Below are positions 19-18,306 of a stretch of 20,568 bases of DNA, piece by piece. The notes beneath the pieces are model-generated. The model did not search any database and was not told where the DNA came from. It saw only the letters and a program-made list of their open reading frames with translations. The stretch spans positions 1 to 20,568 of IMG/VR virus record IMGVR_UViG_3300010373_000148. One strand, written 5' to 3'. Position 1 is the stretch's first letter. Each line of letters starts with the position of its first letter. This DNA comes from a virus. The position numbers and the translations under genes were made by a program.

Positions 19-950
19 CATGCCGCTGTCTCCGGCGCCGGAACGTACGGAAATCCCTGGTAATTGGCATCGGCCTGATTGATAGGAGCCTGCGCGCTTA
101 CGTAAAACGTGTCCACGCCGGGCGTCGGCGCCCAGGGCAAACCGCCGTACAACTGAATCTCAGTGTGATTGTGCCCTCCGCCGTCCAGCCAGCCGAGGTT
201 GCGCGCGATCAGAGCATATTGGCCTCGCAGCGTAGCTCCGGCGCCGCCGTTGAAGACGACGTAGCCATTGTTCAGCGTGTCGGTATGAGGCACGCTCATC
301 GAATTCGGCGAGATTTGGTCGGCATAGAGCACCGTCGGCGAAGTGCCTGCCCCGACGATCACATTGAACTGCGGCATTACCGAGAAGTCTGGAGGCGGAA
401 CGCCGCCTGAATAGCTGGCCAGCGTATTGGTCGATTCAATGACCGCCGTCGGCACTTTCTGGTTGAGGCAGTAGAGATAATCGTTGACCTGAAAGGTGAT
501 GAGGCCAGTTTCGACCTTGACGTCTCCAATCCAGCCGGCAAACCACTCAGCCGCGCCCCACGTATTTGCATCGCCCGGCGTCGGCATGTAGGTTCTCCAG
601 ATCCGCACGCGCCAGTTATCGAAGACGCCCAGGCGTGCCAGCTGATATGCGGAAGCCGTGCCAAGTGACGAGGTAATGCTCTGATTGAGCGGCGACCAAA
701 GAAGCGAGAGCGCGTTTGATTCGAGGCCGATTTTGGACGTGATCTTGTCGCGGCGAATGTTGGTTGAACGGAACGTGCCCCAGAGAGGCCATGCAAGCGG
801 CGTTTCCCAGTTTGTCAGCCACAGCGAACGCGGATCGTCGGCCTCACCAATTAGGATCAGGTCGGCAGGAAAGACGAAGTTATTGGCTTTGAGCGCGGCC
901 AGCACGGTTGCCGTCGTATCGACTCCGCTGCCGCTCAGGAATTGCTTCAT
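18..950 (-). CDS. DUF2163 / BR0599-like tail hub protein
   Basis: A 310-residue protein that resembles the DUF2163 (BR0599-like) family, the hub that closes the tail tube at the tip (g13 in gene transfer agents). The N-terminal 150 residues carry family-like features: FPADLILIGE, then LWLTNWETPL, then a region rich in W with GWIGDVKVE and TFQVNDYLYCLNQKVP. The C-terminus ends in a QGFPYVP segment, similar to the GFPHVPG end of the family. The start ATG overlaps the LuxR-type gene stop (ATGA), and its own stop overlaps the next start. Typical members hold several cysteines around the mid and C-terminal parts; this one has a single Cys (in LYCLN). The family call is from memory of motifs, not a profile search. 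Confidence 0.75.
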   Translation of the reverse strand: MKQFLSGSGVDTTATVLAALKANNFVFPADLILIGEADDPRSLWLTNWETPLAWPLWGTFRSTNIRRDKITSKIGLESNALSLLWSPLNQSITSSLGTASAYQLARLGVFDNWRVRIWRTYMPTPGDANTWGAAEWFAGWIGDVKVETGLITFQVNDYLYCLNQKVPTAVIESTNTLASYSGGVPPPDFSVMPQFNVIVGAGTSPTVLYADQISPNSMSVPHTDTLNNGYVVFNGGAGATLRGQYALIARNLGWLDGGGHNHTEIQLYGGLPWAPTPGVDTFYVSAQAPINQADANYQGFPYVPAPETAA

Positions 951-1171
951 AAGGGCGGCAGCTCCATCACATAGGCCAGAGCGCTCGGCTTCGACAGGAT
1001 ATGGAGCACGGCCTCAAGACGGTTTTCTGCGCCGGTCGCATTGAGCACGCTCGTGATCCGCCTTTTCACCATCACCTTGCTCATGCCTAATTCGTGCGCG
1101 ATTCTGCGGTTGTCCCATCCATGCAACATGCATCGCGCAACAGCCCGTTCCCTTGGCGTAATGTCAGTCAT
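947..1171 (-). CDS. solo LuxR/GerE-type helix-turn-helix protein
   Basis: A 74-residue protein made almost only of a LuxR-type (GerE) DNA-binding domain. It opens with ITPRERAVARCM, matching the family LTxREREV motif. It continues through GWDNRRIAHELGMS and VMVKRRITSVLNATGAENR, where the conserved G, N, I-A, LGxS, VK, GA and NR-EAV positions are all present. There is no receiver or ligand-binding domain, so it resembles a free-standing effector domain. The ATG directly follows the TAG of the DUF2460 gene, with GGAG six bases upstream. Its TGA overlaps the hub gene start by four bases. It is thus an integral, co-translated member of the tail operon. Its target is unknown; it could regulate late phage genes or host genes. 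Confidence 0.85.
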   Translation of the reverse strand: MTDITPRERAVARCMLHGWDNRRIAHELGMSKVMVKRRITSVLNATGAENRLEAVLHILSKPSALAYVMELPPL

Positions 1172-1888
1172 CTAAATCTCCGGAATTCTCGAGCTCATGA
1201 ATTTCAAAGATACCGACGAGAAAGCTTCGCTGCCGCCGACCGTCCACATCGTATTCAAAAACTGATCGAAGGTCTGAAGGTCAGACTCCATCTTGCAGCG
1301 GAAGTAGAAGTTGAATTGAGCCGTCACCGGCGATGCGGGAGCCGTCGAGGCGCCCCAGGCCAGATACATGCCCAGCGTCGAGAAGCCAGGAATCGCGAGC
1401 CCGGGCCCGAGCAATTGATACTGCCCCGCGCCGGTCCCGACTGTGGCTAACGTCCCGTTCGCATAGACGGTGATGCCGCCATTGAGGTCGGGAATGTCCT
1501 CGTAGAAACCGCCCATATTGCGCTGGACGGGCGAGAAGTAGTTGCCTGCGCCATCGTTCCATACCTGCAATTCCGCTGCTGGATTTGGCACGCCAAGAAG
1601 GATGGCAGGCCCTACCGAGTTGTCGCTGGGATCGGAGAACAGGAAGTCGAGCGCCCCGCCGTAGAGCGAAAGGATGAATCCCTGAAGCTGTTGATATTCG
1701 TTAAAGTTCTGCGCGAGGTTTTGTCGCAAAACATCGAAGAGTAGTTCCCAGTGCCAGCGCGGGTTCTGTGCTTGCACGACCGAGGTCTGCATGAAGTTGG
1801 GCGAGTTCTGCTGAATGGTATTGAACTCGCTCGATTTGGGCACCGGCCAGGTGAGGCCCGGCAACACTGGGAAAATCGGAAGAGACAC
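1172..1888 (-). CDS. DUF2460-like distal tail protein
   Basis: A 238-residue protein. The N-terminus (PVLPGLTWPVPKSSEFNT, residues about 8-25) and the C-terminal FNFYFRCKMESDLQTFDQFL segment match the DUF2460 family, the distal tail protein that joins tail tube to hub (g12 in gene transfer agents). The middle is beta-rich with many G, N and Y residues. The start is GTG, overlapping the TAG stop of the tape measure gene (TAGTG), with AAAGG about ten bases upstream. Its position after the tape measure and ahead of a DUF2163-like gene supports the role. The family match is by eye. Confidence 0.75.
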   Translation of the reverse strand: MSLPIFPVLPGLTWPVPKSSEFNTIQQNSPNFMQTSVVQAQNPRWHWELLFDVLRQNLAQNFNEYQQLQGFILSLYGGALDFLFSDPSDNSVGPAILLGVPNPAAELQVWNDGAGNYFSPVQRNMGGFYEDIPDLNGGITVYANGTLATVGTGAGQYQLLGPGLAIPGFSTLGMYLAWGASTAPASPVTAQFNFYFRCKMESDLQTFDQFLNTMWTVGGSEAFSSVSLKFMSSRIPEI

Positions 1889-4431: not shown

Positions 4432-4786
4432 GGGCGCTCCAATCTGCCTTCACTTTGTTCATCACTTCGAGCATTTCTGGGTTGCGCAGGAATTCCGGCA
4501 TCTGCTCGATTGGCTTCATTTGGAGCATCTTGGCAGGAATGTTCGCGAGCGCCGTGGCATTCTCGCGCACTGCCCGCTTGCGGCTGGCTTTGCCTTCCTG
4601 CTGATATCCGAGATAGGAGGCAACCAGCAGATCGGCGGGAGGATGGCGCAAGGTGAACTGCTCGAGCATCCAGAAATCCGAGAGAGGCATCAGCCGTGCC
4701 CGGTCTGGAGTGATCCCGTACCATCGCGCCAAACTCCCAAAGATGTAATCGAGTTCTACGCCGCCGGTGCCGCCGGCTCGTTTTCC
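4424..4786 (-). CDS. tail assembly chaperone T part, made as G-T fusion by -1 frameshift
   Basis: This frame has no good start codon of its own: the first usable one is a TTG at 4732 with a badly placed SD. The open frame continues upstream, without a stop, into the end of the G gene. The reading frame is -1 relative to G. A slip on GGG at the G5A4 run (4781-4790) would join 94 residues of G to 120 residues here, giving a 214-residue GT fusion. The T part contains VELDYIFGSLARWYGITPDR, a WYG...DFW segment and a basic alanine-rich middle. Lambda G/GT and its relatives use the same layout directly ahead of the tape measure to load it during tail assembly. The stop overlaps the tape measure start. 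Start 4786 marks the first codon after the proposed slip. Confidence 0.75.
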   Translation of the reverse strand, partial: GKRAGGTGGVELDYIFGSLARWYGITPDRARLMPLSDFWMLEQFTLRHPPADLLVASYLGYQQEGKASRKRAVRENATALANIPAKMLQMKPIEQMPEFLRNPEMLEVMNKVKADWSAHG

Positions 4787-5067
4787 CCCACGATCTGCGG
4801 CTTCGGTTTGAACCCGTTGACCTTGTTCGCAGCGGCAAGGAACTCCATGAACGGCGGATCGGTCTCTTCAGGACTGAAGACCGGGAGGGAGCGCACCCAG
4901 TCTTCCGTTCCGTGCTCGGTATCGCCTGCTGAAAGCAATGAGGCCGCAATCATGGCGATATTGAATTTGCGACCCTTCTTGTCGTCGAGAACGATGGTTT
5001 CCATCGCTCCCACTGTGATCGTGGCCAGTTCGAACTCTTGGCCTTCGTAGTTGACGGTTTGCTTCAT
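4756..5067 (-). CDS. tail assembly chaperone G
   Basis: A 103-residue acidic protein between the tail tube and tape measure genes, the standard place for the G-type chaperone. It reads MKQTVNYEGQEFELATITVG at the start and ends in an alanine- and proline-rich tail (NEPAAPAA). The ATG at 5067 has AAAGGGG eleven bases upstream. An in-frame TTG at 5088 would add seven residues but is less likely. The last nine codons lie past the frameshift run, so a minority of ribosomes should leave this frame and make the GT fusion. The role rests on position, size and the frameshift geometry; the primary sequence itself is not strongly diagnostic. Confidence 0.75.
   Translation of the reverse strand: MKQTVNYEGQEFELATITVGAMETIVLDDKKGRKFNIAMIAASLLSAGDTEHGTEDWVRSLPVFSPEETDPPFMEFLAAANKVNGFKPKPQIVGENEPAAPAA
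4763..4790 (-). promoter_or_regulatory. -1 ribosomal frameshift signal: G5A4 run plus GC hairpin
   Basis: On the coding strand a TGGGGGAAAAC run lies nine codons before the G stop, read GTG GGG GAA AAC. A tRNA on GGG can move back one base and still pair perfectly with GGG. Eight bases further on, a perfect five-base-pair GC stem (GCCGG / CCGGC, loop CGGCA, 4763-4777) could act as the stimulator. This is not the canonical X XXY YYZ heptamer in frame 0, so the exact slip mechanism is inferred. Confidence 0.6.
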
Positions 5068-5137
5068 CGGCGGAATAACCCCTTTCAATGTTCCACGAAG
5101 CTACATTCGAGATTCGTGTTTAACTATTCAGCGCAAC

Positions 5138-5935
5138 TCACCACGCTTGGAAGCTTTGGAACGGCACGCCGCCTGCACCCGCGAACGCCTCAAAATCGGT
5201 CGTCATCATGGTGTAGTCGTCAAGTTTCGTGGTCAGATCGATCTTGCCGAGGCGCACGTTCGGGAAGTAGAACCCGATGGCATTGTTTCCACCGCCTGCC
5301 TCGTACGGGAACACGACATTCAATCCCAGCACCGGCCCGTAGCCCATCGGGTGATTGGCTGCCGTCAACGTGGTGCCGGTCGCTGCGATCGTGTAGCTGT
5401 AGGAGATGGTCACGCCGAGCGTGGTATCCGCAGCGGCGAATGTGTAGGTTCCGGTCGCCGGGTCAACGTGATACTGCCCTGTCGTGGGCGTAGTCGCCAG
5501 AGGAACTTTGGTCATTGGCACCGAACTTGCCGAGAAGGTCACGCCCAGGTCGGCAAGGAATGTGCCCGAACTCGGAGGCGTCAAAACGACCTGGTAAGGC
5601 GTGCCAGGAATGACGTGCGCTTCGCCGTTGCCGTTGCCGGCCACTTCGACGATGCCCGCAGCAACCGAATCGCCGGTAAACAACTGTGAGAGCAGGATGT
5701 TGGACATCTGGGCAAACTCGAAGCTTCCCTTGATGGTCCGCTTGCCGACTGCCGAGTCTACAGGCCATTGATTCTGCCCGAAGAGCGTCTTGATTTCGGC
5801 GCCGAAGGAGACTTTGCAATTCTGGATCACGCCCACCGTCAAAGGCGTGGGATTGGGGGCGGGATTGCCCGAAGTGGACTGAGGCGAGGCCAGGAGGATT
5901 CCGCTGCCGAATTGCAAGCCTTGAAGGATGGACAT
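5138..5935 (-). CDS. major tail (tube) protein
   Basis: A 265-residue, beta-rich protein with few charged residues, placed between the tail-terminator-like gene and the G/GT chaperones. Residues about 30-90 (GVIQNCKVSFGAEIKTLFGQ, then GKRTIKGSFEFAQ) and the C-terminal NVRLGKIDLTTKLDDYTM with DFEAFAG look like tail tube proteins of siphophages. The middle (about 135-185) has a TTGQYHVDPATGTYTFAAAD segment, common in phage tube proteins with an extra beta region. The SD AAGGGAG eight bases before ATG is among the strongest in the window, as expected for an abundant virion protein. Gaps of 57 and 70 bases on its two sides hold no clear terminator. Confidence 0.8.
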   Translation of the reverse strand: MSILQGLQFGSGILLASPQSTSGNPAPNPTPLTVGVIQNCKVSFGAEIKTLFGQNQWPVDSAVGKRTIKGSFEFAQMSNILLSQLFTGDSVAAGIVEVAGNGNGEAHVIPGTPYQVVLTPPSSGTFLADLGVTFSASSVPMTKVPLATTPTTGQYHVDPATGTYTFAAADTTLGVTISYSYTIAATGTTLTAANHPMGYGPVLGLNVVFPYEAGGGNNAIGFYFPNVRLGKIDLTTKLDDYTMMTTDFEAFAGAGGVPFQSFQAW

Positions 5936-5992
5936 ACGTGTTGCTCCCTTGCGTTAATTCGGCGGATCGAAACTTGGCGGGGTTCACAGCCC

Positions 5993-6493
5993 CTACATGC
6001 CCGAAAGAATGGATATCGGGAAAACTATAGCACCTTGATTGTTTAGCACGCCCTCGTTCTTCAAAATCCGCCCCTTGATGCGCGCGTGGTAAACGACTTG
6101 CCCCAGCGTCTGCTTGAGCCCGCCTGCCATCGGTACGACCGTCACACCATCGAGAGCCAGCGTCCGCTGCTGCATCTGGAAAATCACCGCGTCTCTCAGG
6201 CCGTTCATTTGCGTTGAAACCACTTCGTTCGGCCCGCCCGTATTGCGGAAGAAACATACAGCCGCGCAGTGGATCTCGTACTTTGCCAGCGCGAGAGCCT
6301 TTTCCTCGACGTCCTCCTCGCCTTCGAGTATGTAGAGAGCCGGCTGAATCGCCTGCCCGACCTGCGAGACCTGAGGCAGCCTGCGCGCCGTCGTCAGGAA
6401 GGCAGGCGTCGTTGTCGGCACGCCGTTCGCGAGCGTCATGGTCTGCGAGAGCAGCGAAAAGAGGTTTTGGAAAATGGTCTCCGACGAGGTCAT
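5993..6493 (-). CDS. putative tail terminator / tail completion protein
   Basis: A 166-residue protein just upstream of the tail tube gene and downstream of a gp10-like protein, the usual location of the tail terminator (lambda gpU or HK97 gp10-gp11 neighbourhood). Visible stretches include LFSLLSQTMTLANGVPTTTP, a VGQAIQPALYILEGEEDVEE segment and a C-terminal GRILKNEGVLNNQGAIVFP. The start ATG overlaps the previous stop as ATGA. I do not recognise a diagnostic motif, so the assignment is from position, size and the alpha/beta look of the sequence. Head-tail joining is the main alternative. Confidence 0.55.
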   Translation of the reverse strand: MTSSETIFQNLFSLLSQTMTLANGVPTTTPAFLTTARRLPQVSQVGQAIQPALYILEGEEDVEEKALALAKYEIHCAAVCFFRNTGGPNEVVSTQMNGLRDAVIFQMQQRTLALDGVTVVPMAGGLKQTLGQVVYHARIKGRILKNEGVLNNQGAIVFPISILSGM

Positions 6494-6981: not shown

Positions 6982-7253
6982 CGCGCCTCTGGGAATGCGT
7001 AAGGCCATAGTCGATCAAGCAACCAGTTCGGGAGCCAGTTGAACGAGTTCCAATAGGTACGCAGAAATGCTTGAAAGGGTCTCTCTGGAGGCAATGTGAT
7101 CTTTGCGCCCGTCAGCCAGTTCCACGCCGCGCCGCGTATCTTTCGAGGCAGGATCAGCGTCCAATCGCCCCAAAAATAGAGAAGCGAGTACCGGATTCTG
7201 CGCGCATCGTGCGCAAAGGGATGAATACCGCGAATCTCTCTCGTGTCGCTCAT
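6978..7253 (-). CDS. Trp-rich small protein of unknown function
   Basis: A 91-residue protein I do not recognise. The ATG at 7253 overlaps the connector gene stop as ATGA, and its own stop overlaps the gp10-like start in the same way, which is good evidence that it is translated. A longer reading from further upstream would run over the connector gene and is rejected. It contains eight tryptophans (WGDW, AAWNW, YWNSFNWLPNW, LW) and is rich in R, Y, F and P. No signal peptide or clean membrane helix is seen. Its place between connector and gp10-like genes suggests a neck or head-completion role, by context only. Confidence 0.7.
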   Translation of the reverse strand: MSDTREIRGIHPFAHDARRIRYSLLYFWGDWTLILPRKIRGAAWNWLTGAKITLPPERPFQAFLRTYWNSFNWLPNWLLDRLWPYAFPEAR

Positions 7254-7930
7254 GAAGGAATGAACCTCATACGATAGCGGTCCAGCAGCATCTGCACATC
7301 GTTCGGAATTTCCAGTTTCGAGTAGGCCGTCGTGCCCACATTCGGCTGCATCTGCGAGGTCTGCTCGATCCATTGCCGCGAACGGTATTTGGCCGCTACC
7401 AGCTGCGTGGCAGCCTGCTGGAGATCGAACGGCGTCGCCGCGTAGCCAGCCGAGTAGGAAATCTCGACGTTCATGATGCCTTCGTTGAAGACAAAAGGCC
7501 GCTGCCCAAGTGGAGGCGCGTTGCCGTTGCCGCCCCACTGCCCGGGAGACCATGCGCTGTAGGCGACCGTGTTTCGGCTTCCGCCCCGCAAAGCAATCGC
7601 TGCCTGCGAACCGGAGGTGTCGATCACCCAGCCCACCTGGTTAACGCCGGGAGACTGCGGAATCGGAACGCCGTCAATGGCCAGCGACGAGACGGCGGTT
7701 ACCGGGTAGTTGCGCACGAAAAGGATCTCGCTGCCGTTGCCTGAATAGACTTCGCTGAAGGAAGGAATGGGCGATGCACCGGCAAGATTCGTGCGGCTCG
7801 TGATGAGCTGAACCACCTTCGAGAAGTTGGTAATCGCACTCTGAATAATGGCGGCGTCGACCGTCTCCGCCTGATTGAGCCAGTCGTTCACAAGTGCCAC
7901 GGTCGTCAGATCGATCGGATTGGCTGCCAT
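7250..7930 (-). CDS. gp6-like head-tail connector protein
   Basis: A 226-residue protein just after the capsid gene. The N-terminal helix region (LTTVALVNDWLNQAETVDAA, then AIIQSAITNFSKVVQLITSR) resembles gp6-like and gp15-like head-tail connectors, which stack under the portal. A beta insert follows (YSGNGSEILFVRNYPVTAVS, SLAIDG), and a C-terminal helix (DLQQAATQLVAAKYRSRQWI) is also seen in such adaptors. The ATG overlaps an upstream TGA as TGATG, although the frame that ends there lacks a clear start codon. Family recognition is by motif pattern, without a search. Confidence 0.7.
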   Translation of the reverse strand: MAANPIDLTTVALVNDWLNQAETVDAAIIQSAITNFSKVVQLITSRTNLAGASPIPSFSEVYSGNGSEILFVRNYPVTAVSSLAIDGVPIPQSPGVNQVGWVIDTSGSQAAIALRGGSRNTVAYSAWSPGQWGGNGNAPPLGQRPFVFNEGIMNVEISYSAGYAATPFDLQQAATQLVAAKYRSRQWIEQTSQMQPNVGTTAYSKLEIPNDVQMLLDRYRMRFIPS

Positions 7931-8072
7931 CAGGCCTTCTTAGGTCGGAAGGGCGCCACTGTGAATGACGCCCATCCTGGGCCGATATGCTCCGCCGTGG
8001 GACATTCCGGCCGTCTCTCGGCTTAAAAGGTTTGCCGGGAAGCCCTGTCAGGCCGCCCGGCGTAGGAACCAC
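7930..8072 (-). pseudogene. possible small gene split across two frames downstream of capsid
   Basis: The 175-base gap between capsid and connector genes holds two sensible-looking peptide segments in different frames. From a GTG at 8072 one reads VPTPGGLTGLPGKPFKPRDG. One base back in phase, a second frame reads CPTAEHIGPGWASFTVAPF and then RPKKA, ending in a TGA that overlaps the connector ATG. The second frame begins after a TAA and has no start codon. The two could be one small protein broken by an indel or a sequencing error, or joined by recoding. No good SD precedes the GTG. It could also be chance. Confidence 0.3.
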
Positions 8073-8073
8073 G

Positions 8074-8093
8074 CCGCGCCGGTTGCTGCGCGG
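8074..8093 (-). other. GC stem-loop after the capsid gene
   Basis: A perfect six-base-pair stem (CCGCGC / GCGCGG) with an eight-base loop lies twelve bases after the capsid stop codon. No T-run follows, so it is not a standard intrinsic terminator. It might protect the 3' end of a processed capsid mRNA, or be incidental to the high GC. Confidence 0.3.
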
Positions 8094-8105
8094 TCCCTAG
8101 CCCGT

Positions 8106-9848
8106 TTAGAACTGCGCTGCCTGACCGTACGGCCCAATGCCCTTGATGTAGGCCAGGATGTTCGGAGTCTTGACCGCCAGCACTTCTTCCGAGAACACGC
8201 CGAAGGGATACTTGCGGCTCGTCTGCGCGAACTCGATGCCGTACACATCGCGCCGCGTGAACACGCCCCGGGTTTCGCCCAAACGGCTGTTGTCGTAGGT
8301 TTCCTGCAGGGCATCGACGTCGAAGAAGATCGTGCCATTGGGCAGGTAAGGATGCTGGATCACGTCCACAAACTCCCCGCCAGGCAGGCCGAAGATGTTG
8401 TGATACTGCGCGATCCTGCCGTTGACCGAGATTCCGCTTCCATCCGACTCGGGTCCGCCGTTCGGGAAGAAGTAGTTCAGATTTGTGCCGCCGGTGGCTC
8501 CCACCATGAAGGCTGAGCGGAAGGTCGGAACCACATCGGTCGAGATGTAGATCCGGGTAGGCGAGGTCAGCGCTGCCTGCTGAATGGCGAACAGAACCGA
8601 ATCAACTTCCGTGATGCTTCCGACGATGCCGTTGTTTGTGAGGCCTGCACCGTGGAGGTCAGCGCCGCCAGCCAGTGCCGTCTGCGAAGCCGTTGCTGGG
8701 AAGGTGAATGTCGGCAGGCCGACGGTGTACGCCGAGTTGGCTGCGATGTTCAGCAGGCCGTCCATGTCGAGCGCGTTCGTCGACAGGTCGGTAGCGAAAC
8801 CAGCGTAGCCGCCGGTGCCGGCATAGGCTGCCGTCTGCGTGCCCTGAGTCTGGCCGTAGTAGTTGAAATAGCTGGCCGAGGTGATGCCGGAAAGCTTTGC
8901 CGAGGCCGCTGCCGGGGTGAAGGTCGTGGTCGTGTTGATCTGCACAAACCACGCATAGCCCCAGTAACCGGCCTGCGGTGTGCAGGAGAAGGTCACGGTC
9001 TTTGTGCCTGTGACGGTCGGCCCTACCACGTTTGAAGCTGCCGAGACGATGGCTGTGCCCCCGTTGATGACGTCTGTCGATCCGTCTGCATTGGTACGGA
9101 GGTACTGAGTCGTGATGCCCGCGGCGACCGTGTTGGTCGGGTTGGTCAGGGCACGATAGTTGAGGCCGACGGCGTAAGCTGCGGCGTAGGAGCCCACCGG
9201 AAGCACGCCAGTCACAAACTTGGCGTTATTGGTGGCAGAAAGCACGCCGGTCGGGGTGTTCGTGGTGCCCAACTGCAGCGCGGTTCCGGCGCCATTGGTT
9301 GTCGCCGAGCCGCCGAGGTAGGTGCGCTCACGCATCCGGAGGAAGCGCAGCAGTTGCCACATCTTGCCATCGCCGAGCGCGTCTTCGTAGCCCTCAGAGG
9401 CCGAGATGGCTTCATAGGTCACGAAGTCATCGGTGCCGAGCGTGACGTAGGGCGCCGAGTAATCCTTCTCGGTGAACTGGCCGTTCGAGTTCGTGTTGCC
9501 TTCAGAGACGCCAGGGAACTGTCCACCTGCATCGATCGCTGTCACTGCTTTCCATGTCGGCTGCACGCCGTAGCCGGCATTCACCTTATCCCAGCGCGGC
9601 GTGGTGTTCGTGATGTGCGAGAAGATCGGGTCCAGCATGTACGCCGGCGCGCGAAGGTCGATGAAGTTCAGCCCGAGCCCGGTGGTGATGCCGGTGGTGG
9701 TTTTGGCGAGCTTCTTCGAGTTCTTCTGAACAAAGGCACGCCATGCAGGAAGCCCGCACTTTTTGAAGGCTTCATGAACCTGCCGCATGTCAGTCTTCGA
9801 GACAAGTTGGGCGAAAATTGCTTGTTCCTGATTGTTGCCGGTGTACAT
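8106..9848 (-). CDS. major capsid protein (HK97-fold type) with large inserted domain
   Basis: A 580-residue protein with one of the best SD sequences here (TAGGAG, six bases before ATG). The core is capsid-like: residues 60-180 (FIDLRAPAYMLDPIFSHITN, then APYVTLGTDDFVTYEAI and LLRFLRMRERTYLGG) and 410-575 (RIYISTDVVPTFRSAF, DNSRLGETRGVFTRRDVYG, SRKYPFGVFSEEVLAVKTP). Residues about 200-345 are a Thr/Ala/Gly-rich, beta-type insert with a TQYLRTNADGSTDVINGG segment and FSCTPQAGYWGYAWFVQ, resembling an Ig or FnIII-like fold and likely exposed on the capsid surface. Its place after protease and scaffold, and before the connector, fits. Most capsid proteins of this type without an insert are near 300-400 residues. 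Confidence 0.85.
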   Translation of the reverse strand: MYTGNNQEQAIFAQLVSKTDMRQVHEAFKKCGLPAWRAFVQKNSKKLAKTTTGITTGLGLNFIDLRAPAYMLDPIFSHITNTTPRWDKVNAGYGVQPTWKAVTAIDAGGQFPGVSEGNTNSNGQFTEKDYSAPYVTLGTDDFVTYEAISASEGYEDALGDGKMWQLLRFLRMRERTYLGGSATTNGAGTALQLGTTNTPTGVLSATNNAKFVTGVLPVGSYAAAYAVGLNYRALTNPTNTVAAGITTQYLRTNADGSTDVINGGTAIVSAASNVVGPTVTGTKTVTFSCTPQAGYWGYAWFVQINTTTTFTPAAASAKLSGITSASYFNYYGQTQGTQTAAYAGTGGYAGFATDLSTNALDMDGLLNIAANSAYTVGLPTFTFPATASQTALAGGADLHGAGLTNNGIVGSITEVDSVLFAIQQAALTSPTRIYISTDVVPTFRSAFMVGATGGTNLNYFFPNGGPESDGSGISVNGRIAQYHNIFGLPGGEFVDVIQHPYLPNGTIFFDVDALQETYDNSRLGETRGVFTRRDVYGIEFAQTSRKYPFGVFSEEVLAVKTPNILAYIKGIGPYGQAAQF

Positions 9849-9928: not shown

Positions 9929-10312
9929 CTACTGAATCAGCGCAGCTAGTTCTGGCGGGGCATCGACCGTCTTGGCAACGCTGCTTGCGCCCGATGCCGG
10001 TCCGCCTGCCGCTGGTGTCTCAGCTAGTTTCTTGGTCAGGTCGGCTACGCTCTTCGTGAGCGCTTCGATCTGCTCACGCTGGGCCTTCTGAATAGGCGTC
10101 TCGCCAGCTGCGGCTGCATCGGCGGCAGCCTTGGCCAGCGCCGCAGCCTCAGCAGCCTTGTCGCCGTCTTTGTCGCCGCCCACCATGTCAGAGCATGCCT
10201 TCATGCACTTTTCAATGTGCTCGCCGGTTTTCTCGTGCGCCGCCTTGACGTTCGAGAGGTGATCCATGATGGACTTGCCAGCTTTGGCGAGTTCCTCGGG
10301 TGTCAGTTTCAT
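9929..10312 (-). CDS. scaffolding protein from internal in-frame start
   Basis: Codon 320 of the protease gene is an ATG at 10312 preceded by a perfect AAGGAG at eight bases. Starting there gives a 127-residue protein, MKLTPEELAKAGKSIMDHLS onward, helical and alanine-rich, with repeated KA/AE heptad-like stretches. This equals the C-terminal scaffold domain of the fusion. It copies the nested design of lambda C and Nu3, where the scaffold is made in excess from the same frame. The protein has a short Cys-containing segment (HIEKCMKACSDM). Expression is predicted, not shown. Confidence 0.7.
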   Translation of the reverse strand: MKLTPEELAKAGKSIMDHLSNVKAAHEKTGEHIEKCMKACSDMVGGDKDGDKAAEAAALAKAAADAAAAGETPIQKAQREQIEALTKSVADLTKKLAETPAAGGPASGASSVAKTVDAPPELAALIQ

Positions 10313-11269
10313 GCTCTTTTCTCCTTGGCCGCCCTGAGCGGCTAACTCGTCTGCTTCTTCGATCGCCATGGCCTTAAACTCAGCCAGCAGCATAACCCAT
10401 GCTTCTCTGAGGCCCTCGGGAACTTTCGATCCGTCATCTTCGACTTCCCGTTCCCATTCTGACTGCAGGCAGAGCCAATGCAAGTCCTCCAGCATCGAAC
10501 CCAACCAGCCAACTTCGTATAGTCCTTTTTTCAGCGCAATAGTAGCACAGGCCTTCTTTGCTACCGCTGCGTCCTTCTCAGAAAGAGCGATTCCGGCCTT
10601 CTTCGCCGCTTCAAGAATGATCTTGCGCTCTTCCTTGGGTCGGTCCGCGCACGTCAGCGCACCGCGAACCGCTTTCTCGCTGCCAAGAAGATCAAACGCA
10701 GGCGGGTCAACAATGGAAGTTTGCAGATGAACCTCTTCAGTAACTCCCGGTGTGGCTTTGCTGAGGGTCACGGTTCGCCCTTTCATCGACTCAACCAGCG
10801 CCGAAGGAAGGCAGGGCGCATCGACGGCTGAGACTTCGAGCGGCCGCGCTATGTAGCGCATGCAGCCCTTGAAAACCGGGTCTTCCCACTTGCGGAGGTA
10901 TTCACCGCCCTGCGAGAAACCGACGAAGCAGCCGGCCTTCCACTTCTTGATGGCGTTGGCATCGACCACATCGAAAGCCATCTTGATGGTTTTGGCGGTA
11001 TCGTCGAAGACAAGTTCCCGGCCCGCTCCCTGGACGATGGCCGAATTGTGCTGCTCGCGGAAGGGCATCAGAGAGGGCGTCATGCCAGGCAGAGACGTCT
11101 TCGCAACCTGCTCGGCGGAGACCTCTTCGTACTGAGGTTTGGTGCCGGCGTAATCGCAGACTTCATTCTCTAGGTCAGGCGATTCGGCGGTGACGGTTCC
11201 AAAGACGCGGAGCGAGCCATCGCCCTGCTCTTCCATTTTCGTAAGCGGAACGAATTTTTGCAGTTTCAC
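9929..11269 (-). CDS. XkdF-like prohead protease with C-terminal scaffold domain
   Basis: A 446-residue fusion. Residues 1-160 look like an XkdF/S78-type prohead serine protease: RVFGTVTAESPDLENEVCDY, then FREQHNSAIVQG with candidate catalytic H74, AGCFVGFSQGGEYLRKW with candidate S119, and ARPLEVSAVDAPCLPSA with D150 as possible third member. Residues about 205-315 form a helical region (KGLYEVGWLGSMLEDLHWL). From residue 320 on, the sequence is an acidic, alanine-rich coiled coil (AEAAALAKAAADAAAAGE) like a scaffolding protein. The start is GTG with AGGA seven bases upstream. It precedes the capsid gene, the usual place for this pair. Catalytic residues are proposed from motif shape only. 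Confidence 0.75.
   Translation of the reverse strand: MKLQKFVPLTKMEEQGDGSLRVFGTVTAESPDLENEVCDYAGTKPQYEEVSAEQVAKTSLPGMTPSLMPFREQHNSAIVQGAGRELVFDDTAKTIKMAFDVVDANAIKKWKAGCFVGFSQGGEYLRKWEDPVFKGCMRYIARPLEVSAVDAPCLPSALVESMKGRTVTLSKATPGVTEEVHLQTSIVDPPAFDLLGSEKAVRGALTCADRPKEERKIILEAAKKAGIALSEKDAAVAKKACATIALKKGLYEVGWLGSMLEDLHWLCLQSEWEREVEDDGSKVPEGLREAWVMLLAEFKAMAIEEADELAAQGGQGEKSMKLTPEELAKAGKSIMDHLSNVKAAHEKTGEHIEKCMKACSDMVGGDKDGDKAAEAAALAKAAADAAAAGETPIQKAQREQIEALTKSVADLTKKLAETPAAGGPASGASSVAKTVDAPPELAALIQ
10321..10326 (-). promoter_or_regulatory. internal SD for the nested scaffold
   Basis: AAGGAG on the minus strand, eight bases before the in-frame ATG at 10312, inside the protease-scaffold gene. It matches the 16S anti-SD core fully. 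In the protein it falls in the low-complexity linker GGQGEKS, where little coding constraint is expected. Confidence 0.7.
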
Positions 11270-11335
11270 GCGAACATCCTAGCACGAGGGCAGTTTTTTG
11301 GATTAGTACGTCACCTAATTCGTTCCGTTCAATTC

Positions 11336-14131
11336 CTAGTAGGGCTGCGCCGTGAACTGAACCACATCTCCGCTTACTACCGTTCCAGTGAGCGTACAGG
11401 TAGTTGTAGATGATGCTGTTTGAGTGATCGTATCAGCAGGGGTCGTTAGATCATGCCCGGAGCAGTTGAATCCCGTTCCCCGACTTGTATACCCCGGCGT
11501 AAGGACAACTGTGACTGTTCCCGAAGTCGAACTGGTGTAGCTTCCAATCGTCACGCCATTGTTCGTCGCCCCCGCGCTTGCGCTGATTGTTCCCACAGAT
11601 GCAGCAGCTGAGAATGTCGCGGTAGTTGAAACAGGGACAAAGATTGTGCCGTTTGAGACCATCTGCCCAGTTCCGTAGGTGGCATTGATGTTCTGGATTT
11701 GAGAACCCGCTGGGTGTCCAAGACGCGCGTTGTCCACAGTGACAAAACCATCAAGCGGGGCAAATAAGTTAAACGTTGGCGTGCCGCTAACTGTTCCTAT
11801 AAAACGATCTGTTCCTGTATTAGAAGTGTTACCTCCTAGAGAGTTTACCGTGCAAGTAATCGAACCCGCACAACCAACTAGCCATCCGTGATTCGCCTTA
11901 TTGTTTGAGAGCAGAAAGGTTGTCGCTGCGCTCGCCTGCAACATGCCTGTAACGGTACCCGATCCACAATCCCAATAAACGTTGTCGGCCTTGACTTGTG
12001 GGCCTGCCGCAGACACATTTACAACGGAACCGCAAGCCGTATCAGTGCCGTCGTGAACGTGAATGCTTGCCACACCTGTAGCAGCCGAAGAGATAACGTT
12101 GGGGAATACACTCCCTGCCGGAGCAGGCACATAAAAATGAGAAACATCGACATTGGTTATTACGCTGCTTGCAGGAATGCTAAAAGCCACGTCCCCTGTA
12201 TTGTGAGGTCTGAAATCCACTCCATCGGCAATCAAATTCTGAATTGTAGTCCCTGATCCGACGCTGGTAAATAGAGTGACGTTGCTGGAATTGGTAGCCT
12301 TTGGACCTGAAATGCGGCGGATATACATATTAGCGACGGTCACTGGCCCGATTCCAATACAAGGAGATGTCCAGTCCATTGTGCAGGTTATATCCTCAAA
12401 ACTCATAGTCCCTGCGAATCCTCCACCCGCGAGAGTAAAGAATCCCGGCGATGCGGTTCCCGCAAGGGAGTGGCAGTCTCCGTTTTTTACTGTCACTTTA
12501 TCGAGCCAATAACCAGAAGGCGCAGCCGTGTTCAAACTCACGCAATGGACGTTTGTTATCCCATGCACGCCATCAATATTGACGTTCAAGAAATCTCCAG
12601 CCCCAAAGTAATTAGGGCTCAGTGTCCAAAACTGATAGCCTCCGACGTCAGCATAGAGGGCAAAGATATCGTCCGAACTATAAGCGTAGGTGTTTTCAAA
12701 CGAACTATTGGTGACTGGCCCCTGCCCCTGCAACCCATCCTTGAACTCGTTAGTTGGATCGTAGAATCCGCGCATGTGGAAGTCGTCCACGCCCGCGAAC
12801 ATCATCCCATATCCCGTAGTCAGCGAACCGTTCAGGACTTGATATTGTCCGTAGTGCTGAAAGCCATGCACGCCCAAAAACAGAGACGCGTGAGAGTTGA
12901 GCCCCACTCCGGTACCTGAACTATAGTCGAGCGTCACATTCTCAGCTTGCAGGTTTACATCGGCGTGCTTCACGTAGTAAGGCCCAGCCAAAGCCGCTGC
13001 CGGGATACGGTTTAGCTTAATCACGACGTTATTTGCGTCAGTTACAGATGTCACGCGAAATACTCCACTAAACGCGCCATCCGTGTTCACTGTTCCTGTC
13101 GCGGTGAATGTTGCCGTGCCGGTGCAGGTTGCTACAGTTCCACTGTACGGTGAAGTGAAGCCCCATGTCGTTCCGACGTTAGTAAAAGTGATTGTCCCGG
13201 TCGGCACTCCACCACTTACCGTGATCGTGCCAACATTCGGAAACGCCACATTTGCCGCGTTTGTCAGAGATACATTCTGTGTGCCATTAGTGCACGCGCT
13301 GGCACCGGATGCATAGGTCGCTACTGTCGAAGCGCTTATGAACCACTCGCTTGCTTGCGCATACACCCATTGACCGCCAAATCCTGTACCGCTGCCAATT
13401 GGAAATCCATGAGCAGGGAAGTTCAGCGCACAGGTATCACCACTTGTCCAAGTGCACCCTGTACTCGCAATGAAGGGTTGAGTGTATCCATAATTCACCC
13501 AGACTGTTGTGTTGTTGTTGCTCTTTACAATCACTCCAGGGTCCATCTTGAGTTTGGTATTGGAGTATTGCACCATCGGGCCATTGATGTAATAGACCGT
13601 TCCCGCCGTGCCTGAGATATAGCACGTTCCCCCTGAAGTAGAGAGGCAGGTATTTATCACTGCGATATTTGCGGCTGCCGCCCCTGCGGAACTTGGCGTG
13701 AGAGGAAGGCCGATACTTCCTACCGCAGATGTACCACTCACCGCCGCTCCGTTCCCCGGATAGTACGCGATCTGCCCTGTCGTGCCTGCGTTGACGGTGC
13801 CGTTGGCTGCCGCCGAAGCCACCCCCGTACTCGGGTTGACGATGATCGATGTGTTATCCGGCTTGACTCCGCCGAGCACAGAGGTCGTTGCAATAGGCAG
13901 AGTGTATGAGCCGCCGATTGCCGCATAATGCCCATTTTGGCAGGAATACTGCGTGCCGGTCGTCTTGTTCTGCAGATTTGGCAGGCCGGTGCACACCGTT
14001 CCGGTCGGATCCGAGTTCGTGTAGACGATGCTGGGGCAGCTTTGCTTGCCGGTGTTCGGATCTACGGTGCATCCGTTTTGCGCATGGAGCGACGCGCTCA
14101 CAAGGAGGAAAATCAGTGCCACGATCTTCAT
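11336..14131 (-). CDS. secreted beta-helix protein, tail spike-like or exoenzyme
   Basis: A 931-residue protein with a clear Sec signal peptide: MKIVALIFLLVSASLHA then QNG, cut likely after residue 17. An in-frame upstream ATG would bury this signal, and the ATG at 14131 has GAAAGG eight bases before it. After a Cys-containing N-terminal part come TTGQIAYYPGNGAAVSG repeats-style linkers and, from about residue 165, a pectate-lyase-type right-handed beta-helix opening (INTCLSTSGG, YYINGPMVQYSNTKLKMDPG). Long runs of short beta strands follow, with AYSSDDIFALY near residue 485. The C-terminal 150 residues are T/S/G-rich beta sequence. It could be a receptor-binding spike or depolymerase, or a secreted enzyme cargo. 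Signal peptides are unusual on virion spikes. Its GC drops sharply after about residue 145. Confidence 0.65.
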   Translation of the reverse strand: MKIVALIFLLVSASLHAQNGCTVDPNTGKQSCPSIVYTNSDPTGTVCTGLPNLQNKTTGTQYSCQNGHYAAIGGSYTLPIATTSVLGGVKPDNTSIIVNPSTGVASAAANGTVNAGTTGQIAYYPGNGAAVSGTSAVGSIGLPLTPSSAGAAAANIAVINTCLSTSGGTCYISGTAGTVYYINGPMVQYSNTKLKMDPGVIVKSNNNTTVWVNYGYTQPFIASTGCTWTSGDTCALNFPAHGFPIGSGTGFGGQWVYAQASEWFISASTVATYASGASACTNGTQNVSLTNAANVAFPNVGTITVSGGVPTGTITFTNVGTTWGFTSPYSGTVATCTGTATFTATGTVNTDGAFSGVFRVTSVTDANNVVIKLNRIPAAALAGPYYVKHADVNLQAENVTLDYSSGTGVGLNSHASLFLGVHGFQHYGQYQVLNGSLTTGYGMMFAGVDDFHMRGFYDPTNEFKDGLQGQGPVTNSSFENTYAYSSDDIFALYADVGGYQFWTLSPNYFGAGDFLNVNIDGVHGITNVHCVSLNTAAPSGYWLDKVTVKNGDCHSLAGTASPGFFTLAGGGFAGTMSFEDITCTMDWTSPCIGIGPVTVANMYIRRISGPKATNSSNVTLFTSVGSGTTIQNLIADGVDFRPHNTGDVAFSIPASSVITNVDVSHFYVPAPAGSVFPNVISSAATGVASIHVHDGTDTACGSVVNVSAAGPQVKADNVYWDCGSGTVTGMLQASAATTFLLSNNKANHGWLVGCAGSITCTVNSLGGNTSNTGTDRFIGTVSGTPTFNLFAPLDGFVTVDNARLGHPAGSQIQNINATYGTGQMVSNGTIFVPVSTTATFSAAASVGTISASAGATNNGVTIGSYTSSTSGTVTVVLTPGYTSRGTGFNCSGHDLTTPADTITQTASSTTTCTLTGTVVSGDVVQFTAQPY

Positions 14132-14173
14132 GGGGCATGCCTTTCGGGATTCACGCGCATGATAACAGGAAAG

Positions 14174-14227: not shown

Positions 14228-14755
14228 TTAGGGAGTCGGCGTGCCGAAAACGACGGTTTCAGCCTGCGTCAGTTGCGCAGGCGGAACAACGGCGTTCACG
14301 GTGATTGTGAAGGGCGCATTCCAGGTAGAAACTGCCCCATCGGTATCGGTCACGGTGTTTGAGGCGGTTCCCTTGACCGCGCCTATAGAAGGCGCGATCG
14401 CAGTGACCTTGCCAGTGATGCCATCGGGGTTCAAGGCCACCGTTGCCGATGGATCATCGAAGTTGAAGGTAACTTTGCTCACGACGCCGCCCGAAGGACT
14501 AACGCCGTCAGCAAGTTCGGGTTGAATCGAAACGTCTGCCGTTTGGCCGACATTGATGACAAGATCGTTGTTCATAATGAAATGTTCTCCTCGGAATTGA
14601 ACGCTGATGGTTTTGGTTAGAACATCGGGGATGAGCTTGTGCCTGATGGCGTGGACATCGTTCGCGATCTGCTTGAGGATCTTGATTTCTTCGCGATCTT
14701 CTTCGACAATCACGATTTCAACGATCTCCTGAACCTGCACCGGCTTCTTATGCAT
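14228..14755 (-). CDS. Ig-like domain protein with N-terminal helix
   Basis: A 175-residue protein. Residues about 5-50 are charged and helical (VQEIVEIVIVEEDREEIKIL). From about residue 60 there is an Ig-like (Big-type) beta domain: NDLVINVGQTADVSIQPEL, then VSKVTFNFDDPSATVALNPD, GKVTAIAPSIGAVKGTASN and WNAPFTITVNAV. Such domains often decorate phage heads and tails and bind surfaces weakly. The start at 14755 has GAGGAG nine bases before it. An internal in-frame ATG at 14575 also has GAGGAG, eleven bases away, and would give the Ig domain alone (115 residues). It is the last gene before the terminator at 14174-14204. Confidence 0.7.
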   Translation of the reverse strand: MHKKPVQVQEIVEIVIVEEDREEIKILKQIANDVHAIRHKLIPDVLTKTISVQFRGEHFIMNNDLVINVGQTADVSIQPELADGVSPSGGVVSKVTFNFDDPSATVALNPDGITGKVTAIAPSIGAVKGTASNTVTDTDGAVSTWNAPFTITVNAVVPPAQLTQAETVVFGTPTP

Positions 14756-14795
14756 GGGGGAAAACTCCTCGCCAAAACATCGTATACCAAGCGAA

Positions 14796-15116
14796 TTAGT
14801 GTGCAATTTGGCTCAGGTTGGCGGCGTAGACTTTGCGCACCGTCCGCCTGAGCCTTTTGCGCTGCCGGCCGCTGATTCCAGAGGGCCGCCGCGCCTCACG
14901 TTCAAGAATAGCCTTCTCGCGCGTGGCTTCAATATCGCGGCGCAGCTGGGCGAGCCGTTGGTCTCTCAACTTGGCCTCGGCAATCATCTGCCGTGCGCGC
15001 TCTACGAATTCAGGCGAGGTCATCTCAGCGATGGCCTCAGGCGAGTAGCCTTCGAGGTCTTCGGGGTTGAGCGTACCGTCTTCGTTGAAGGTGAGGGTGC
15101 GGAGAGGTTCAGTCAT
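14796..15116 (-). CDS. small coiled-coil protein, unknown function
   Basis: A 106-residue protein not recognised. The N-terminus (LTFNEDGTLNPEDLEGYSPE) is acidic. The middle is a long charged helix (FVERARQMIAEAKLRDQRLA, then RRDIEATREKAILEREA). The C-terminus is very basic (SGRQRKRLRRTVRKVYA). The acidic-helix-basic order could suit a DNA- or protein-bridging role in the head, but nothing shows this directly. Its ATG overlaps the previous stop (TAATG), consistent with coupled translation in the head operon. Confidence 0.65.
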   Translation of the reverse strand: MTEPLRTLTFNEDGTLNPEDLEGYSPEAIAEMTSPEFVERARQMIAEAKLRDQRLAQLRRDIEATREKAILEREARRPSGISGRQRKRLRRTVRKVYAANLSQIAH

Positions 15117-15831: not shown

Positions 15832-16022
15832 GCGACCCTCTCTCTTGCCTGCTCGCGCAACTTGAACGTCAGCAGCACATTTACCTTGGCTCCAAAGCCG
15901 ATGCCCACCTGATAGGCAGACTGGCAGAGCAGATCGTAATCCCCGCAATAGACGTCCAGATTTGCCTCGACGTCTTCCAGATCACAGCAAACTGCAACGT
16001 ACCGGCGCTTACGTATTCCCAT
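15828..16022 (-). CDS. small Cys-containing protein, unknown function
   Basis: A 64-residue protein starting MGIRKRRYVAVCCDLEDVEA, with four cysteines (VCCD, VYCGDYDLLC) and a basic end (KLREQARERVA). It overlaps the end of the portal gene by 14 bases. The ATG at 16022 has AGGGAG three bases before it, which is close; an in-frame TTG at 16034 is the alternative. The stop overlaps the next start as ATGA. Not recognised; the tight packing is the main evidence that it is real. Confidence 0.55.
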   Translation of the reverse strand: MGIRKRRYVAVCCDLEDVEANLDVYCGDYDLLCQSAYQVGIGFGAKVNVLLTFKLREQARERVA

Positions 16023-18306
16023 CGTCTCCCTCAACCTTGGTTACCGAAAGCCAGCAGCGGCATTTGTTGTGCGCGCCGGGCTCCTTAATCCCCATCCCGA
16101 AATCATGCCCTACCGGAACAGATCCCTGAGCGGAAAACTCGGCGCAAATCGGGCAGCAACCGCCGTCCTGTACCTGCCAAGCGTATTCGAGGACCTTCTT
16201 CGAAGCCGACCACGCGCCAACATGCCCACGAACCTGCTGGTGAGAAATCTCCGAATCGGCAATCGTTTCCGCCTTGTCGTCAGAGAAGACTTGGCTCGCC
16301 TGAATGACGGCCTCAAGTTGCGACGGCGACCACGATTCCTTGATTGCCTGCTTGATCGTGTTGAGCACGTCATCCTTGGCAGTAGTTGAAATCGCCCAAT
16401 GTGCCCCGGTTGCCTCTGCAATCGTGCCATCGTCCTCAACCTTCAGCCCGACCATCTGGTACGCGCGGTCCGCGGCTTCCTGCTCTGCGATCGGCGTGGC
16501 TGCTTCCGTGACTTCTTTGAGATTGGTTTGCAGATGAGCAGTCGCCTGGTACGCGCCGACATTCACGCCCTCGCGCGCTGCCTCCTCGAGATAGGGCCTC
16601 ACGAGTTCAGCCAGCGCCGGGTACTCCCACTCCATCGCCGCAAGGATGGCCAGCGCCCGCGCCGTGTCGTCTTCGAGTTCGCCCTTCCTTACTTTCTTGG
16701 CGAATAGCTTTGCCGCGCCTTTCGCCACACGCGCGCCCTGGGCTGAGAGAAACTTGGCCAGCTTGCGATGCAGTTCCTGCTTCAGTTGCGAGTTGCGCGG
16801 CGTGAGTAGTCCTGCTACGGCTTTCAGTTCAGCGCGTTTGCCTAACTTCGCCGGTCCTGCCGGCTGAGGAGGGTTTGCGGGTTCAGGCTTAGGCGGTTGG
16901 AGGGCAGTGGACCGCGCCGTAGCGGCTTCGAGCGAGAGCGGCTCAATTCCGGTTACAGACTTCACCGTGAGCATATCCGCCTCAGGCTCGGGCCGTGGAT
17001 CGTCGCCGCGGGCCTCGCGCACTTCATTGCGGGTGTAAGTGCCGTTATTGACGTAGGTATCGTCAACCTGCGCCTGCTTCAGAGGATCGATTTCCCGCTC
17101 ATCGTTGTATGCGAATTCAACATCGTCCAGCCCAAGCACTCGCTCAATCACGTAATTAAGCGTGTTTTCGATGTGGCGCAAATATGGCTCAAGGCCTTCG
17201 ACCTGTGCCACGTCAGTCGATTCCTTCGCCGTGCCGCGGTTGACCTGCTTTACCAGGTTCTGCGGGCTCACCGAGAACGCGAACGCTACCACGCGAATCA
17301 GGTACTCGTCGGTGGCATCGGTCAGGGCCTCCGACTTCGAGAACTGCGCCGGATGCTTGGCGTCGGGAATCATCGTCAGCCGGCGCCGCTTGCCGAGGTT
17401 CCCAGCCAGGAGCGAATCGAACCACTTCTGAAAGTCCTTGATTTGCTGCATCGTCCAGTTTTCCGGCATCGGCAGCAGGCCCTCAGGAACGTTGCCTGAG
17501 GTGTAGTAGTCGAGCAGGAACTGCTGGCGATTGGCGGCGATTGCCAGCGTCCGGATGATCTGCTCGACGGGCGGAAATCCCCAGCGGGAGTTGACCCTGG
17601 GGTTGCGCGGCGAGTAGACAAGCTGGTTGGCCGTGAATTCCTTCGGCTTCTTGGCGTCGACCAGCGCCTGCCCGGTCAGATTGCCGGTCGGGATGCCGAG
17701 AATGATCTGCTGGTAAGCAGGGCTAGGCGGGAGCGGCCGGAAGCCGTTGTTATCGAGCAGTGGCGTGATCGTGGCACCCGAGATGAGCCTCAGCCACTTG
17801 ATTTCATTGAGTAGGTTCGAGCACGGATAGATGGTCGGGGCATCGAACACGAGCAGGTCTTCTAACCACATCCGGATCCAGAGATCGAAGGAATGCACGC
17901 CGTCTGGATAGCGCAAAAGCTGTGTGACAGCCGTCACGTTTTGGTTTTGCGCTTCCCGCTTGAGGCGTTCGGCCTTCTTTTCCCCGGGCACCTTCTTGAC
18001 CCGGATCGACCAGGGGCGGTTGACGATCTGATCCTTGCGGGTTTCGATCATCAGGCGGCAGAGATCGAAACTGTTGCTAACGTTCCACAACTGCCCAAAC
18101 TTGACCGGGTTTTCTGAGCGCGGCGTGAACTGCAGATTGATGCCTGGGGTAAAGTCCCACTGGCGAACTCCTACGCCGAGTTGCTGGGTTGGCCGGATGG
18201 GTTGCTGTGCCGAGGCCCAGTCGCCAGGGTTGATGCCCTCAATCAGCGTACCGGCTGGCCTGAAAATGGGCGCGAGTGCATCTTGCGTGGCTTTCCAGAG
18301 CCCCAT
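16009..18306 (-). CDS. portal protein fused to Mu gpF-like domain
   Basis: A 765-residue two-part protein. Residues about 1-440 are portal-like: DLCRLMIETRKDQIVNRPWS, NQLVYSPRNPRVNSRWGFPP followed by VEQIIRTLAIAANRQQFLLD, and GTAKESTDVAQVEGLEPYLR. A proline-rich linker (about 468-490, QPPKPEPANPPQPAGPAK) leads to a helical region. A C-terminal Mu gpF-like minor-head domain follows, with CCPICAEF (717-724), VGHDFGMGI and AHNKCRCW (745-752); the C-x2-C and H-x2-CRC residues are likely metal ligands. Portals form the twelve-fold DNA gate. The MuF domain is normally a separate neighbouring gene (SPP1 gp7-like), so this is a fusion. Its ATG directly follows the TAG of the upstream gene. Confidence 0.88.
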   Translation of the reverse strand: MGLWKATQDALAPIFRPAGTLIEGINPGDWASAQQPIRPTQQLGVGVRQWDFTPGINLQFTPRSENPVKFGQLWNVSNSFDLCRLMIETRKDQIVNRPWSIRVKKVPGEKKAERLKREAQNQNVTAVTQLLRYPDGVHSFDLWIRMWLEDLLVFDAPTIYPCSNLLNEIKWLRLISGATITPLLDNNGFRPLPPSPAYQQIILGIPTGNLTGQALVDAKKPKEFTANQLVYSPRNPRVNSRWGFPPVEQIIRTLAIAANRQQFLLDYYTSGNVPEGLLPMPENWTMQQIKDFQKWFDSLLAGNLGKRRRLTMIPDAKHPAQFSKSEALTDATDEYLIRVVAFAFSVSPQNLVKQVNRGTAKESTDVAQVEGLEPYLRHIENTLNYVIERVLGLDDVEFAYNDEREIDPLKQAQVDDTYVNNGTYTRNEVREARGDDPRPEPEADMLTVKSVTGIEPLSLEAATARSTALQPPKPEPANPPQPAGPAKLGKRAELKAVAGLLTPRNSQLKQELHRKLAKFLSAQGARVAKGAAKLFAKKVRKGELEDDTARALAILAAMEWEYPALAELVRPYLEEAAREGVNVGAYQATAHLQTNLKEVTEAATPIAEQEAADRAYQMVGLKVEDDGTIAEATGAHWAISTTAKDDVLNTIKQAIKESWSPSQLEAVIQASQVFSDDKAETIADSEISHQQVRGHVGAWSASKKVLEYAWQVQDGGCCPICAEFSAQGSVPVGHDFGMGIKEPGAHNKCRCWLSVTKVEGDDGNT

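Follow-up and report, generated by a model that had tools for sequence, protein, structure and literature searches.

The gene P0001 of an uncultured phage very probably encodes an exported protein, as judged from its predicted signal peptide and from its relatives, and it is built from modules of phage fibers. In our preferred explanation, to which we give an even chance as a whole, P0001 would be a spike that is finished outside the cytoplasm and joins virions. The narrower question of whether the protein becomes part of virions or acts as a free protein is also about evenly balanced. The window analyzed here is a whole IMG/VR virus record of 20,568 bases with genes on the minus strand, and P0001 is the gene under study. 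L-numbers are labels of compared loci, and L002 is a second phage that carries the body of P0001.

An open frame with a Shine-Dalgarno sequence fitting its start and a clean Sec signal peptide had been proposed for P0001, and both were confirmed. The N-terminus (MKIVALIFLLVSASLHA, followed by QNGC) has one Lys, a 13-residue hydrophobic core, and Ala at position -1. It is classified as a signal peptide under a home-made heuristic (positive n-region, hydrophobic core, and small residue at -1), which also gives a positive call for 4.5% of control ORFs, including some that are truly exported. In addition, residues 3-25 align to the signal-peptide end of TIGR04200 (NCBIfam, below cut-off). The protein has 20 Cys, many of which are spaced 6-10 apart. 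The possibility of a wrong start codon was considered and rejected; the alternative TTG, 45 nt upstream, overlaps the tail of a terminator. The parts of the gene are as follows:

11336-14131, minus strand: coding sequence of P0001, a predicted exported spike-like protein (ATG at 14131 to TAG at 11336, 931 aa, stop included)
14140-14145, minus strand: Shine-Dalgarno sequence GAAAGG, 8 nt before the ATG
14081-14131, minus strand: predicted Sec signal peptide, residues 1-17 (MKIVALIFLLVSASLHA), with the cleavage site predicted by eye and heuristic
13802-14080, minus strand: N-terminal segment, residues 18-110, with 4 Cys and the fiber-type motif YTLPIATTSVLGGVK
13733-13801, minus strand: linker GTVNAGTTGQIAYYPGNGAAVSG, residues 111-133, the start of the L002 homology and widespread in phage fiber-type proteins
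11339-13732, minus strand: body or 'tip', residues 134-931, with 16 Cys, every one conserved in L002, and a GC3 of 51%

One close relative of P0001 was found in IMG/VR, in the 98.7-kb contig L002. The terminase and portal of this phage are non-homologous to those of the window phage, and it has many HNH genes and 43% G+C (in the stretch read). Residues 111-931 of P0001 are 97% identical to the L002 protein at the amino acid level, and the DNA identity between the window and L002 is confined to positions 13801-11303 within the compared loci:

11303-13801, minus strand: module common to the window and L002 (90% DNA identity), starting at the linker and ending 33 bp beyond the stop codon

The shared body has evolved under purifying selection (dS 0.43, dN 0.016, dN/dS 0.037), and all 16 of the shared Cys are kept between the two proteins. 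The homology begins at GTVNAGTTGQIAYY, i.e., at the linker. Before residue 111 the two proteins are unrelated, and the L002 protein starts with a clean signal peptide of its own (MKNIFVSLLFLFGLVLASAQ); a 140-aa gene just before the L002 spike gene also has a signal peptide. In the window phage and L002 alike, the body has a GC3 of 51-54%. For residues 1-110 of P0001 the GC3 is 71.8%, like that of native phage genes (62-78% in the neighbors), and the N-terminus of the L002 protein has 38% GC, matching its own phage. As the bodies are alike in GC3 and each N-terminus matches its own phage, the same tip appears to have been joined to two resident exported stalks. P0001 has the modular build of fibers with an exchangeable tip, swapped at a shared linker between two unrelated phages.

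Other elements of P0001 also resemble phage fibers. The linker pattern GTVNxGxxxQ[ILMF]AYY was matched by at least 119 IMG/VR stretches, in fiber-type proteins of many phages. The motif YxLPxATTxxLGGVK lies at residues 76-90, and residues 58-115 resemble the head-fiber proteins of phiCrAss001 (E 0.001, with the N-terminal piece searched alone). Against the Pfam family Phage_head_fibr (PF11133), the N-terminal part reached 18.1 bits, which is below the gathering score of 24.6. The N-terminal 100 residues and a 35-residue linker piece yielded no match as search queries. The body is distantly homologous to a spike-like protein of Caulobacter phage Quill_5.2 (gp049; 28% identity over 240 residues) and, via this protein, to the spike-like protein P26059A_0121 of Curvibacter phage P26059A. 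Two regions of the body are defined by these comparisons:

12032-13690, minus strand: region homologous to Quill_5.2 gp049, residues about 148-700, a probable beta-solenoid
13082-13375, minus strand: segment of about 98 residues (253-350) with C280 and C336, missing in the Quill and Curvibacter homologs

No signal peptide was found in either Quill_5.2 gp049 or P26059A_0121. These distant homologs from cultured phages are in line with P0001 being an ordinary cytoplasmic tailspike, assembled on virions like P22 gp9, with a hydrophobic N-terminus that is due to chance or to a wrong start. However, two non-homologous signal peptides precede the same body, its cysteines are even in number and conserved, and the Quill_5.2 protein lacks several of the partner cysteines (e.g., C162 and C226). 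Together with the association between signal peptides and cysteines across a wider class of proteins described below, these features make a cytoplasmic tailspike very unlikely. As a separate observation, gp049 and gp050 of Quill_5.2 (L123:3635-5469) lie in different, overlapping frames and resemble a single spike when joined; a frameshift, a sequencing error, or a true split could account for this.

The beta-helix fold that the original prediction had ascribed to P0001 was not confirmed. Searches of Pfam, PHROG, and PDB families left the body without a match, AlphaFold2 with a two-sequence input gave a pLDDT of 36 for the whole protein and 41 for residues 385-765, and the hydrophobicity periodicity has no clear solenoid repeat. 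Foldseek hits were non-significant, mostly beta-solenoids and some of them polysaccharide-lyase-like. The distant tailspike-like relatives suggest that the body may be a beta-solenoid. Searches for a pectate lyase or GH28 profile or catalytic site found none (Pfam to E 10; NCBIfam to E 0.1). Of the earlier proposal that P0001 is either a secreted cargo enzyme or a spike assembled at the envelope, the part common to both, namely export, stands; neither an enzyme activity nor a catalytic site was identified. The fiber linker, the head-fiber-like motif, and the tip swapping fit an envelope spike; the upstream terminator, the absence from the same interval in relatives, and the foreign GC3 fit cargo.

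These cargo-like traits concern the genomic setting, which was located as predicted between the portal and a protease-like gene, outside the tail module, although other exported fiber-like proteins do adjoin tail genes. The relevant features are as follows:

16009-18306, minus strand: portal protein (Pfam 4e-18) with a C-terminal Mu-F-like domain
14228-14806, minus strand: Ig-like small protein without a signal peptide, upstream neighbor of P0001
14175-14205, minus strand: intrinsic terminator, a 10-bp stem and then TCTTTTT, between the Ig-like gene and P0001
14159-14167, minus strand: possible extended -10 element TGTTATCAT, not above chance in the window
9929-11269, minus strand: protease-like gene, downstream neighbor of P0001 (phrog_21715; function assigned from position)

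Upstream of P0001 are the Ig-like small gene, three small genes, and the portal, and downstream are the protease-like gene and the presumed major capsid gene; the latter two match unnamed PHROGs only and are labeled from these matches and gene order. The terminator upstream of P0001 (-20.9 kcal/mol for a 43-nt stretch, z -3.3) is the best of the terminator-like sites in the scanned stretch, which overall are not above chance, and the scan found none directly downstream of P0001. The portal-protease interval is 4.7 kb in the window. Among the relatives of the window phage, which were found by portal, those with a complete interval mostly have 1.1-2.3 kb, and L156 has 4.4 kb with other genes inside. 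P0001 is absent from the interval in every one of these relatives, which identifies it as an insertion. The whole records of 13 relatives also held no trace of it, an empty search that by itself shows little. The intervals of L147 and L148 contain other exported, cysteine-paired genes (in L148, one with a fiber motif), and that of L156 contains exported small genes beside toxin-like cassettes; the interval thus accepts exported cargo. With its upstream terminator, P0001 looks like an insertion in the head operon.

The L156 locus (793-6075) has further peculiarities. The C-terminal part of its portal is repeated further down (about 3230-3760, with a short piece near 6105), two of the copies run into different peptidoglycan-hydrolase-like ends, and four exported small genes have a common VNPWTGxxWDxWxCEK-like motif. 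This region resembles an array of polymorphic toxin/immunity cassettes on the portal, with periplasmic immunity proteins, for which MuF polymorphic toxins provide a comparable case (PMC5576092).

Foreign GC3, a secretion signal, and the polysaccharide-lyase-like fold hints could also indicate a cellular secreted enzyme or host-derived auxiliary metabolic gene unrelated to fibers, or host DNA at a contig edge. This origin is highly improbable, given that head genes flank P0001 on both sides, that the gene has a fiber linker and a head-fiber-like motif, and that a near-identical copy lies beside the terminase and portal of a second phage; no relative was found in the genome collection either, by a pattern-based scan of weak sensitivity. 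Contamination with host DNA was considered and dropped. Scans of genome contigs for the spike and for the portal found no host of the window phage, and an assignment to Acidobacteriota from the style of the signal peptide is only a guess.

A more serious alternative, with a probability somewhat short of even, is that P0001 is exported but free: the infected or lysogenic cell would secrete it or display it on the surface, and it would at no point become part of virions. Such a protein, a descendant of a tail spike working as a host-surface protein, could cut or coat the polysaccharide receptor of the producing cell and thereby block superinfection, release progeny from the matrix, or alter the lysogen surface as a moron. 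Its anatomy is moron-like, with a strong upstream terminator, absence from the interval of relatives, and a foreign GC3, and the interval in which it lies is occupied by other exported genes in L147, L148, and L156. Furthermore, a signal peptide with disulfides is the usual design of secreted proteins, and the L002 phage record contains an integrase. However, the relatives of the window phage (mostly fragments) yielded no integrase, the promoter-like sequence does not exceed chance expectation, and P0001 is built from virion-fiber modules.

P0001 is not a one-off, in that fiber-like proteins with predicted signal peptides are common in uncultured phages. Signal peptides were called in 27/87 ORFs with the linker and a complete start, compared with 25/560 other ORFs from the same loci (Fisher p 2e-12; as for all p values of the linker set, somewhat optimistic because the set includes the window, L002, and a few homologous pairs, namely L016/L066 and L041/L055). 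When only the first start was considered, the counts were 23/87 and 15/560, respectively. The earlier statement that virion spikes are not normally exported holds for cultured model phages. Among cultured phages with matches to the exported fiber-like protein of L105, none has a signal peptide there, and the searches turned up no gene of this kind in any cultured phage. A literature search, mostly not covering subscription papers, found no paper on exported tail fibers.

The exported linker proteins also differ in cysteine content, with a median of 1.35% compared with 0.25% in the others (p 5e-10). Of the 20 complete exported linker proteins that have two or more Cys, 19 have an even number (p 2e-5), and the sole odd one, from L055, becomes even once the lipobox Cys is set aside; among non-exported linker proteins, 19/27 have an even number. 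Ten exported genes chosen by position in related phages encode mature proteins with 12, 14, 6, 12, 16, 16, 2, 8, 4, and 2 Cys (10/10 even, with signal-peptide cysteines left out by eye). For another fiber motif, ADHVHPxDT, signal peptides are not significantly enriched (8/96 vs 30/609), but the exported proteins have 1.23% Cys compared with 0.21% (p 3e-4), and the number is even in five of six. Thus, the enrichment of signal peptides is specific to the linker family, and the cysteine signature of exported fiber-like proteins is general. Proteins that are rich in Cys and nearly always have an even number are expected if disulfides form outside the cytoplasm, and the signature is hard to explain without a true exit from the cytoplasm.

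Many genes of this class are located in tail operons, near or overlapping the preceding gene. The terms 'fiber slot' and 'tail-like' were read from gene order and PHROG names. The exported gene of L105 comes after a baseplate wedge gene, as does that of L098, where a further exported gene separates the two; in L007, a fiber-anchor gene lies between the baseplate wedge gene and the exported gene. The L105 protein has a C-terminal tail-fiber domain (phrog_9017, 6e-14), and the exported proteins of L022 and L033 have virion-structural domains. In L158, L160, and L161, which are relatives of the window phage, exported Cys-rich genes come directly after a J-like tail-tip gene, except for a small gene between them in L158. 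Three exported genes adjoin the tail-like genes of the L002 phage, and one of these three matches a parallel beta-helix profile. By a mechanical count, in which some of the upstream ORFs may not be genes, 21/27 exported linker genes start -60 to +25 nt from the upstream ORF on the same strand. Such positions suggest late rather than lysogenic expression and argue against a protein that works free of virions.

Several individual genes encountered in these loci deserve mention. In L160, the second gene after the J-like tail tip (7087-8130, minus strand) is exported and has a glycine-rich adhesin-type domain (phrog_863 tail fiber assembly, E 2e-14). L007 (11090-11965, plus strand; phrog_12796) and L033 (5804-6628, minus strand) each have a separate gene for a fiber N-terminal domain, without a signal peptide, directly before the exported body, possibly representing split fibers with the anchor inside and the body outside the cytoplasm. 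A signal-peptide gene in L106 (13641-14465, plus strand) resembles a Hyphomicrobiales outer-membrane barrel and adjoins an exported fiber-like pair; it may be phage-borne or mark a host boundary. In L165, a short exported ORF (8908-9216, minus strand) like a truncated solenoid N-terminus lies between two long exported genes and is possibly a decayed or frameshifted third spike. Finally, Strzyga_00010 of a cultured Brevundimonas phage (L169:10233-11807, minus strand) is annotated antisense to its surroundings, and its composition suggests a spurious ORF.

In the preferred explanation of a spike completed outside the cytoplasm, P0001 would be made with a Sec signal peptide, cross the inner membrane, and lose this peptide. 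It would then fold outside the cytoplasm, where its 20 Cys may form up to ten disulfides that staple the beta-solenoid body. A fiber-type stalk would be formed by the N-terminal segment together with the linker, and the 820-residue C-terminal body would serve as an exchangeable tip, binding or cutting a host surface polysaccharide. Each phage would have received this tip at the linker of its own exported stalk, with swaps matching host sugars. At lysis, periplasmic spikes would meet virions and join them, such that P0001 would act as a receptor-binding spike.

Export and oxidation are considered very likely, and the export step is well supported by the swapped-yet-exported relative, the even Cys counts, and the exported genes in the tail neighborhoods of relatives. 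For the final step, the fiber modules, tail-operon positions, and tip swapping favor joining virions, whereas the cargo-like placing of the window gene and the absence of a known precedent favor a free protein. To our knowledge, there is no precedent for spikes mounted outside the cytoplasm. In addition, P0001 is preceded by a terminator, in the manner of cargo expressed on its own, and in lambda the position after J is also used by lom-type host-surface morons; both points count against joining virions. As a more general and tentative proposal, which we consider rather less than evenly likely, many uncultured tailed phages may have fiber bodies that are Sec-exported, oxidized in the periplasm, and mounted at lysis, with a cytoplasmic stalk or anchor that stays with the particle.

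Phage tails and fibers are taught as cytoplasmic assemblies. The exported fiber-like class would imply one of two things: some phages complete their receptor-binding parts outside the cytoplasm, or fibers repeatedly became secreted host-surface proteins. Either answer changes annotation, as such genes may be mislabeled as auxiliary metabolic genes or overlooked as receptor-binding proteins, and also changes host-range prediction for soil and freshwater phages. A signal peptide combined with an even Cys count provides a sequence test that is open to anyone.

Compared with known systems, the closest counterpart in sequence is Quill_5.2 gp049 (WNV48185.1), a spike-like protein encoded between the terminase and lysis genes of a T7-like Caulobacter phage, which shares the homologous body and an N-terminal solenoid motif. 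Unlike P0001, it has 494 aa, no signal peptide, and no 98-residue insertion, it lacks several partner cysteines, and its frame continues in gp050; its virion role is putative. The tailspikes of P22 (gp9) and HK620 share with P0001 the expected pectate-lyase-like beta-solenoid, a likely polysaccharide target, and the modular arrangement of N-terminus and tip. However, these tailspikes are cytoplasmic and trimerize inside the cell, whereas P0001 is predicted to be exported and cysteine-paired and has no significant sequence or fold match to them. Head fibers (phi29 gp8.5, PF11133; phiCrAss001 gp21/gp29) have the YxLPxATTxxLGGVK motif and the head-operon location in common with P0001, a likeness of motif only and below the Pfam cut-off; head fibers are not known to have a signal peptide. 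The lambda morons lom and bor, an outer-membrane barrel and a lipoprotein, respectively, resemble P0001 in being inserted between conserved structural genes, in having an exported product, and in the nearby terminator. They differ in that P0001 is a large fiber-derived protein, for which a promoter and lysogenic expression are putative. Finally, carbohydrate-active auxiliary metabolic genes of soil viruses share the signal peptide, the hints of a lyase-like fold, and the origin from uncultured soil phages. Those genes are read as host-type enzymes, whereas the linker, tip swap, and tail-gene synteny of P0001 point to a phage fiber.
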